Both the position numbers and the translations under genes were made by a program. This document shows, piece by piece, positions 1-17,515 of a stretch of DNA of 64,000 bases. The notes under the pieces are model-generated. The model saw only the letters and a list, made by a program, of their open reading frames with translations, made no database searches and was not told the DNA's origin. The DNA comes from Methylococcales bacterium (GTDB lineage Bacteria > Pseudomonadota > Gammaproteobacteria > Methylococcales > Methylomonadaceae), in NCBI GenBank assembly GCA_026399075.1, contig JAPLRR010000040.1:1-64000 (forward strand), in the 5' to 3' direction. Position 1 is the stretch's first letter, and every line of letters begins with the position of its first letter.

Positions 1-145
1 GGTGGAAATGGTAATGCCGGGGGACAATATTTCCGTCAAGGTTAAATTGATTTCACCGATTGCTATGGAAGACGGCTTGCGTTTTGCAATCCGTGAAGGT
101 GGTCGTACCGTCGGTGCGGGTGTTGTTGCATCAATCATTGAATAA
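1..145 (+). CDS. tuf: Elongation factor Tu, 3' end only (tuf copy 1)
   Basis: This is the last 47 codons of a tuf gene whose start lies before the window. It encodes the end of EF-Tu domain 3, which helps hold aminoacyl-tRNA. The reading frame starts at base 2 and reads VEMVMPGDN, ending VVASIIE and TAA at 143-145. The first 141 bases are identical to the second tuf copy (16431-16571), as expected for duplicated tuf genes kept alike by gene conversion. The copies diverge only at the last sense codon, GAA here and GAT in copy 2. Its place before tRNA-Trp and secE matches the tufB position in gammaproteobacteria. Confidence 0.97.
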
Positions 146-194: not shown

Positions 195-270
195 AGGTCA
201 GTAGTTCAATTGGTAGAATGGCGGTCTCCAAAACCGCTGGTTGGGGGTTCGAGCCCCTCCTGGCCTGCCA
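195..270 (+). tRNA. trpT: tRNA-Trp (anticodon CCA)
   Basis: A full cloverleaf can be folded. The acceptor stem is AGGTCAG (195-201) with CTGGCCT (260-266), including one T-G wobble. The anticodon stem is GCGGT/ACCGC around anticodon CCA at 228-230. The T-loop GTTCGAG and an encoded CCA end (268-270) are present. A tRNA-Trp between tufB and secE is a common gammaproteobacterial arrangement, so it is probably co-transcribed with one or both neighbours. Confidence 0.97.
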
Positions 271-15384: not shown

Positions 15385-16575
15385 ATGGCCAAAGAAAAGT
15401 TTTCACGCAGTAAGCCCCATGTAAACGTAGGCACAATCGGCCATGTTGACCATGGCAAAACAACGTTAACGGCGGCATTGACCACGGTAATGGCAAAATT
15501 GCATGGTGGCGCGGTAAAGGCGTTCGATCAAATCGACAATGCGCCAGAAGAGCGCGCACGCGGTATTACCATTGCAACCTCACATGTTGAATATGAATCG
15601 GCAACACGCCATTATGCGCACGTTGACTGCCCAGGCCATGCTGACTATGTAAAAAACATGATCACAGGCGCCGCGCAAATGGATGGCGCGATATTGGTCT
15701 GTTCGGCAGCAGACGGCCCGATGCCGCAAACTCGCGAGCACATCCTGCTGTCAAGGCAAGTAGGCGTTCCATACGTTGTCGTCTTCTTGAACAAAGCAGA
15801 CATGGTTGATGACGAAGAGCTGATCGAACTTGTTGAGATGGAATTGCGCGAATTGCTGGACATGTATGAATTCCCTGGCGATGACACGCCAATTATTCGG
15901 GGTTCAGCGTTGCTTGCCTTGCAAGGTGATGAAAGCGAAATCGGCATGCCATCAGTAGTAAAATTGGTTGAAGCGTTGGACAGCTACATCCCATTGCCAG
16001 AGCGTGCGGTTGACGGGGCGTTCCTGATGCCTATCGAAGACGTGTTCTCAATTTCAGGCCGTGGTACAGTTGTTACTGGCCGTATTGAGCGTGGCGTTAT
16101 AAAAGTCGGCCAGGAAGTTGAAATAGTCGGTATTCGTCCAACGGTCGCAACCACCGTAACGGGTGTTGAAATGTTCCGCAAATTGCTGGATCAAGGCGAG
16201 GCGGGCGACAACGTGGGTCTGCTGTTAAGGGGCACAAAAAGGGACGACGTCGAGCGTGGCCAAGTATTGGCGCACAAAGGCACCATCAAGCCCCATTCCC
16301 ATTTCAACGCGGAAATATACATTCTGTCAAAAGAGGAAGGTGGACGACATACGCCGTTTTTTGATGGCTACCGCCCGCAGTTCTACTTTCGGACGACGGA
16401 TGTGACAGGTGCGGTTGCGTTGCCTGAGGGGGTGGAAATGGTAATGCCGGGGGACAATATTTCCGTCAAGGTTAAATTGATTTCACCGATTGCTATGGAA
16501 GACGGCTTGCGTTTTGCAATCCGTGAAGGTGGTCGTACCGTCGGTGCGGGTGTTGTTGCATCAATCATTGATTGA
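15385..16575 (+). CDS. tuf: Elongation factor Tu (tuf copy 2)
   Basis: The 396-residue EF-Tu delivers aminoacyl-tRNA to the ribosome. It has P-loop GHVDHGKTT, switch [10 protein letters not shown] and the NKAD guanine motif. Codon choice is noticeably richer in G and C at third positions than in fusA or rpsJ, as in copy 1. The gene ends ATT GAT TGA, giving a final Asp where copy 1 has Glu. The stop appears to come from the junction with rpsJ rather than from a normal tuf end. The last codons overlap the best available rpsJ start. Confidence 0.96.
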
Positions 16576-16846
16576 TCATAAATTGATTGATCAATCGGCT
16601 GGTGAGATAGTAGAAACAGCAAGAAGAACAGGTGCCCAAGTTAAGGGGCCTATTCCTTTGCCTACTAAGAAAGAGCGTTTTACAATTTTAATTTCACCGC
16701 ATGTAAATAAAGATGCACGTGATCAATATGAATTGAGAACATATAAAAGATTGCTGGATATTGTTGAGCCAACTGAAAAAACAGTAGATGCATTGATGAA
16801 GTTGGATCTTGCAGCTGGTGTTGATGTCCAAATAAAATTGAATTAA
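16568..16846 (+). CDS. rpsJ: 30S ribosomal protein S10, 5'-truncated
   Basis: From [22 protein letters not shown] onward the sequence aligns with E. coli S10 to the C-terminus. The normal first 13 residues, which form the first beta strand (consensus IRIRLKAF), are absent. In their place is the tuf 3' end read in another frame. The closest possible start is TTG 16568, giving a 92-residue protein against the usual 103, with no ribosome binding site. S10 is essential, packs in the 30S head and is NusE, the partner of NusG and NusB. The normal tuf-rpsJ spacer and S10 leader are also missing. Either a deletion or an assembly fault is possible. Confidence 0.85.
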
Positions 16847-16864: not shown

Positions 16865-17515
16865 ATGTCAATAGGTCTTATAGGTCGTAAATGTGGTATG
16901 ACCAGAGTTTTTTGTGAAGATGGTTCTTCAGTACCTGTTACTGTTCTCCAGATTGACTCAAACAGAGTTACTCAGGTTAAAAGTGTTGAGGTAGATGGTT
17001 ATCGTTCAATTCAGGTTGCAGCGGGCGAAAAAAAATCTTCAAGAGTAAATAAAGCAATGGCAGGTCATTATGCGGCGGCTAATGTGACAGCTGGGCGTGG
17101 TCTTTGGGAGTTTCGACTCGAAGAAGGCGAAGGCACTGAGTTATCTGCCGGTTCCGAGTTATCTCTGGATATTTTTCAAGCAGGACAAGTGGTTGATGTC
17201 CAAGGCCGTAGTATTGGTAAAGGTTTTGCTGGCGGTATTAAAAGACACCATTTTAGTATGCAGGATGCCACACACGGTAACTCACGCTCACATAGGGTAT
17301 TGGGTTCTATCGGTATGTGCCAAACTCCAGGCCGGGTTTTTAAAGGTAAGAAAATGGAAGGTCACTTGGGTAATACAAAAACAACTATCCAAAACCTGAC
17401 TATTCATGCCATTGATACAGCAAGAAATTTAATTTTAGTTAAAGGCGCAGTGCCTGGTGCTAAGGGTGGTGATGTCGTTATCACGCCTGCGATGAAATTG
17501 CGAAATAAAGGTTAA
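16865..17515 (+). CDS. rplC: 50S ribosomal protein L3
   Basis: The 216-residue product is slightly longer than E. coli L3 (209). It begins [16 protein letters not shown] and has the characteristic long loop around [11 protein letters not shown] and [12 protein letters not shown] that reaches toward the peptidyl transferase centre. The Gln in FSMQDATHG corresponds to the residue methylated by PrmB in E. coli. It lies 18 nt after rpsJ, and a GAGGA box is present. Confidence 0.97.

Follow-up and report, generated by a model that had tools for sequence, protein, structure and literature searches.

Does a living methanotroph make ribosomal protein S10 without its first strand, or has a contig been joined wrongly where the gene for EF-Tu meets rpsJ? 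S10 is essential, and the question arose when an earlier note on this DNA reported that the second tuf copy runs straight into rpsJ and that S10 lacks its first 13 residues. We analysed the window, a stretch of 64,000 nucleotides that corresponds to bases 1-64000 of contig C75 (113,473 nt) in the draft genome G000 (4.08 Mb, 111 contigs, 93% complete). With the L3 protein as query, the nearest named relatives were Methylobacter, Crenothrix and other Methylococcaceae methanotrophs (best match 98%). The genes of the window follow each other as tuf copy 1 end, tRNA-Trp, secE, nusG, rplK to rpoC, rpsL, rpsG, fusA, tuf copy 2, rpsJ, rplC and the remaining S10 cluster; the tRNA-Trp gene after tuf copy 1 marks what we take to be the usual tufB neighbourhood.

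Table 1 Features of the window that bear on the tuf-rpsJ join
Feature	Position	Strand	Remark
tuf copy 1, 3' end	1..145	+	contig begins within gene; bases 1-141 identical to 16431-16571 of copy 2
tRNA-Trp	195..270	+	downstream of tuf copy 1
tuf copy 2 (EF-Tu, 396 aa)	15385..16575	+	crossed by the contig unbroken; last codon and stop formed across the join
Candidate GTG-started frame	16544..16846	+	from inside tuf into S10; SD-like GAAGGUGG upstream; matters only in the case of a real deletion
12-mer ATTGATTGATCA, across the join	16567..16578	+	one of two copies in the window
Join	16571..16572	.	16571, last base common with tuf copy 1; 16572, first rpsJ base
rpsJ sequence present	16572..16846	+	S10 residue 14 (DHKLIDQ...) to stop; only S10 match in the genome; Pfam 8-98 of 98
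12-mer ATTGATTGATCA, second copy	16582..16593	+	native rpsJ sequence coding LIDQ
rplC (L3)	16865..17515	+	intact gene after rpsJ; query for finding named relatives

The join between tuf and rpsJ

At the point where tuf copy 2 passes into rpsJ, 16571/16572, the window reads ...GCATCAATCATTGA|TTGATCATAAATTGATTGATCAATCGG... Aligned to its nearest relative, L030 (isolate WB-IL-19), the DNA is otherwise continuous over 6.3 kb with 85% identity and 6 gap openings, about 0.87 kb of which lies on the tuf side as the L030 sequence starts within tuf, and 46 nt are absent at the join. The absent segment consists of the last base of the final tuf codon, the stop, a 5-nt spacer, the rpsJ ATG, 11 more codons and one base of codon 13. 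Relative to L030 the join is blunt, and the right edge of the jump is the second base of the rpsJ Phe13 codon. In the S10 frame, exactly the 13 residues preceding DHKLIDQ are gone (compare MSNQTIRIRLKSF in L030). The junction letters and this frame comparison confirm what had been reported, and it also holds that the two tuf copies are the same up to the join (Table 1), the following base being A in copy 1 and T in copy 2. The last codon of tuf copy 2, GAT, and its stop TGA (16573-16575), which the note had already placed at the join, are both created across it.

The normal spacer and ribosome binding site had been counted among the losses. Their absence is confirmed, but there was little to lose: the spacer in relatives is only 4-8 nt long (5 nt in 68 of the 78 loci read), and the native rpsJ Shine-Dalgarno (SD) pairing is weak, at -2.2 to -2.5 kcal/mol in six relatives' loci, two of them from one contig.

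The 12-mer ATTGATTGATCA, described as sitting at the join and again 15 nt later, is present at both places and nowhere else in the window (chance expectation 0.00). Seven of these 12 bases, TTGATCA, also occur twice at a spacing of 15 nt in relatives with an intact rpsJ, such as L021, and the join contributes to the 12-mer only ATTGA, from the tuf end. As a cause of the loss we therefore rejected the repeat, which looks like a by-product. A hairpin fared no better, since the inverted repeats GATTGATCA/TGATCAATC at the join fold no better than shuffled sequences (DNA z -0.95; 35 of 200 shuffles as good).

The start of S10 in this genome and in relatives

What remains of S10 is well preserved. 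Pfam PF00338 matches it with 111.5 bits (cut-off 21.2) over positions 8-98 of 98, PRK00596 with 146.1 bits (cut-off 85) from profile position 13 of 102 and TIGR01049 with 131.7 bits (cut-off 72.75) from profile position 10 of 99; a complete N-terminus with a start codon is what the window's rpsJ lacks. Of the 91 codons that run from codon 14 to the stop, 21 differ from L030, all of them synonymously, with 0 amino-acid changes. Judged by these changes, the remaining S10 is under full purifying constraint and the gene is alive. The lost part is conserved as well: in an alignment of 20 relatives' S10, 10 of the 13 leading columns do not vary.

A full rpsJ start might have been placed elsewhere in the genome. 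A PF00338 profile search across the 111 contigs found no second S10, and a degenerate DNA pattern for the S10 N-terminus, allowing up to 3 mismatches, gave no credible copy. The one match, C59:8372, had 3 mismatches and was rejected as a stray rpsJ start, compared with 3 matches of a reversed-pattern control. With no second S10, a conserved core and no credible stray N-terminal DNA, there are two options: an error in the contig, or a very recent loss that has been compensated. Searches of PMC literature on assembly errors at repeats, S10 N-terminal truncation, NusE structure and collapsed tuf copies, as far as titles and the openings of abstracts go, brought up no comparable S10 truncation.

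Is the start normally present in relatives? We searched 34 other same-genus genomes by PF00338, and the S10 match spans Pfam positions 1-98 of 98 in all 25 that have one, the other 9 giving no match. At the level of loci (25 same-genus plus 80 named records, sets that overlap in organisms), 104 of 105 carry rpsJ with a standard N-terminus, and the remaining one, L031, begins after rpsJ. Comparison with relatives thus shows a normal start in all examined loci that carry rpsJ. By pattern, GAG plus stop was found 4-8 nt upstream of the rpsJ ATG in 78 of 79 named loci with a readable start; in one of these loci, L107, the preceding sequence does not resemble a tuf end. The exception is L062 (CAIUVX010000151.1), where the usual tuf GAG and stop are missing and the tuf end seems to be extended.

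A wider draw from the family comprised 201 genomes, 173 with S10 and 28 without (20 of the latter named). For genomes other than G000 it provided the best E-value per genome, with coordinates among the matches listed. The clear low scorers by best E-value were G000, G152 and G197; the latter two were dismissed as similar truncations as their S10 is cut by contig ends. Among the matches listed in this draw, G000 is the only genome with S10 shortened inside a contig. At the end of contig C269 of G152 (L131), the rpsJ contig starts at the S10 His15 codon, at most 5 nt from the point where rpsJ starts in the window. This near-coincidence may be chance, or may have a shared cause in lost reads. In any case, rpsJ contigs without their start do occur, as G152 shows.

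Four family genomes (G080, G120, G158 and G184) carry two S10 matches each. In the two-contig genome G120, two full-length matches lie about 0.8 kb apart on the same strand (C1:2429172-2430273), possibly a tandem rpsJ duplication. Such second matches leave room for a real deletion that affects only a part of the population or one of several rpsJ copies, the assembly then showing a minority or non-functional version and lacking the working gene, and the 9 of 34 same-genus genomes without a match suggest that working copies do drop out of drafts. We nevertheless regard this as very unlikely for G000, in which there is a single S10 region, no credible leftover of S10 N-terminal sequence, and a remaining S10 that has taken no amino-acid change relative to L030.

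Candidate starts inside tuf

If the 46 nt were truly deleted, and very recently, where would S10 be started now? The best candidate is GTG 16544, in the +1 frame of tuf. Its frame is open from within tuf to the S10 stop and would encode a 100-residue protein, in which ten residues from the alternative frame of tuf would replace the lost first strand. The predicted anti-SD pairing before this GTG reaches -8.0 kcal/mol, far above that of the native rpsJ starts in the six relatives' loci, and beats 20 of 21 correctly placed starts of the window, only rplX being stronger (fusA, listed 22nd, is not counted because its start was placed 3 nt off). From its residue 2 the frame aligns gaplessly by phmmer to residue 5 onward of the 103-residue solved S10 10fz_J, presumably that of E. 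coli, so that the product would have near-native length. The lost segment is also flanked by similar words, AATCATT-GA in tuf and AATCATTTGA in many relatives' rpsJ. A deletion between these words, however, would take 49-50 nt and not the 46 observed, and we rejected microhomology or slippage as its cause.

Further points weigh against a start at this GTG. The jump falls just where the tuf repeat ends; both NCBIfam S10 models that the frame passes match it from residue 10 only, which leaves the new N-terminus unrecognised; none of the relatives examined shares the arrangement; and the SD-like GAAGGUGG is part of conserved EF-Tu codons and would be there even if S10 made no use of it. AlphaFold predicted no N-terminal strand for the GTG frame (pLDDT 50.7, low) and a strand at residues 4-9 for an intact control (60.3, low). 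The inputs were alignments of 20-21 very similar sequences, and these low-confidence models were used as evidence in neither direction. A real, very recent deletion with S10 now started at GTG 16544 is, in our view, very unlikely. The full proposition, that a living methanotroph has lost its rpsJ start and makes S10/NusE from a GTG in tuf, with the first strand encoded in the +1 frame of the EF-Tu C-terminus over an overlap of about 30 nt, we hold to be quite improbable. If it were true, the tuf/rpsJ overlap would tie the synthesis of S10 to the translation of EF-Tu.

A deletion could also be real with the first strand simply absent, S10 being started from TTG 16568 or 16583 and coupled to the tuf stop. 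TTG 16568 lies just before this stop and within its reach, as in coupled genes. Such a start would, however, remove residues of which most are invariant in the relatives from a protein known to be essential, and the SD pairing is weak at both positions (-3.3 and +0.6 kcal/mol, respectively), which makes this reading extremely unlikely.

Contig breaks at tuf and comparison with known systems

The two copies of tuf offer a different explanation. Three tuf pieces are found in G000. Copy 2 is complete within C75; copy 1 is split into its first 290 nt, with which contig C86 ends, and its last 141 shared nt, with which C75 starts. Only two positions, 126 and 150, set the C86 piece apart from copy 2, and the contig stops exactly 140 nt after the second of them. 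Copy 1 is hence broken at contig ends that leave k-mer-sized shared stretches of 140 and 141 nt. On its left the jump is bounded by 16571, the last base on which the copies agree, and an exact 141-base repeat, found a second time elsewhere in the assembly, ends at this breakpoint.

In the nearest relative, G010, which we take as one genome with L030 because their junction sequences match, the two tuf copies part within the stretch from EGGRT to the stop at exactly the jump base, the third position of the final codon, which is GAG in copy 2 and GAA in copy 1; 19 mismatches are spread across the 821 nt preceding this stretch. In six other same-genus tuf pairs, the copies differ at the jump base and already at least 5 bases before. 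A jump at the base where the copies naturally diverge is what a misjoin predicts, while a natural deletion starting there would be a coincidence.

Comparable breaks occur at another repeat of this genome. In nine other contigs the terminal part of C75 finds matches of 124-140 nt at 98-100% identity, and in C63 one of 118 nt at 80%. At this 3' end (L111:3380-3474) lies an element that resembles a group II intron (Rfam RF02003, 50.2 bits; gathering 49), and several copies of such an intron are apparently present in G000 and limit its assembly. Seven other contigs that match the repeat were returned as loci; six of them stop at a distance of 139-148 nt from the match edge, and C108 at 262 nt. Contig breaks at repeats in G000 typically leave about 140 shared bases, and tuf is crossed only at copy 2, at whose exit the anomaly lies. 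The pattern resembles the footprint that a k-mer assembly with k of about 141 would leave, a value that fits the default last k of MEGAHIT; the names of some relatives' contigs carry k141. An assembly of this kind would break on both sides of a two-copy tuf, and copy 1 is indeed broken. The start of C86, by contrast, lends the footprint no support, as its first 600 nt match only themselves among the contigs of the genome.

By DNA identity, tuf copy 2 is 80-82% identical to the full-length tuf genes of the same-genus relatives searched, 85% to G010 and at most 90% in short fragments; within G000, the copies are nearly identical where both are present. This looks like ordinary gene conversion within the genome, which is described as keeping tuf copies alike (PMC6053082). 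Repeats in turn are named as the main contributor to misassemblies (PMC9661791).

How could 46 nt be dropped at such a place? With near-identical tuf copies, a short-read k-mer assembler would break or guess there. The contig coming from fusA would have been extended along the tuf sequence shared by the copies as far as their last common base, and would then have been attached to an rpsJ piece without its first bases, so that about 46 nt were dropped. The organism itself most likely has an ordinary full-length rpsJ a few nucleotides past tuf. Since a k-mer graph alone needs a read that spans the join, we have to assume a scaffolding or gap-closing step, a chimeric read, a minor variant or an rpsJ contig lacking its end, and we infer that the drop arose in assembly, scaffolding or gap closing.

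Several observations speak against a misjoin. Identity of the tuf copies up to the break is also expected under a real deletion, and the coincidence with the natural divergence point is demonstrated for the nearest relative G010 only. The right edge has no obvious assembly reason, as in the k-mer picture an rpsJ contig would be expected to start some 141 nt within tuf. Nor do the two joined pieces overlap, the two broken ends of copy 1 retain unequal stretches of shared sequence (140 versus 141), and a frame with a plausible start stays open across the join. Even so, because the jump falls at the last shared tuf base, copy 1 is broken at k-mer-sized ends, the relatives are intact and S10 is conserved, a misjoin is favoured. 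The earlier note had left a deletion and an assembly fault both open; the letters themselves stand, and on the sequence evidence assembled here the junction is very probably an assembly misjoin at the 3' boundary of the two-copy tuf repeat.

The join in the window is therefore not to be reported as an S10 without its first strand unless reads provide evidence for it. As an assembly fault, it would be a useful warning that duplicated tuf goes along with contig breaks in this group's draft genomes, here apparently with a false truncation; tuf pieces lie at contig ends in G010, G012, G013, G016, G019 and G021 as well. Universal genes that appear missing or shortened beside tuf should be given no biological reading without the reads. 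If the loss were real, the first strand of an essential ribosomal protein would have been overprinted by another essential gene.

The locus can be set beside three known systems. The first is repeat-boundary misassembly in short-read drafts, which it resembles in the break at the end of a near-identical two-copy gene and in other contig ends that reach about 140 nt into repeats; it differs in that the dropped bases lie just outside the repeat and that the right edge is explained by no overlap. Second, compared with uS10/NusE (rpsJ; TIGR01049, PRK00596, PF00338), the contig is without the first 13 residues and the start codon, whereas the 90 residues from DHKLIDQ are those of an ordinary bacterial S10. 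The third is the gammaproteobacterial str-S10 region, in which rpsL-rpsG-fusA-tuf-rpsJ-rplC follow each other and a second tuf precedes tRNA-Trp-secE-nusG. Here the window lacks the short tuf-rpsJ spacer found in the 78 read loci, while its gene order and both tuf neighbourhoods are standard.
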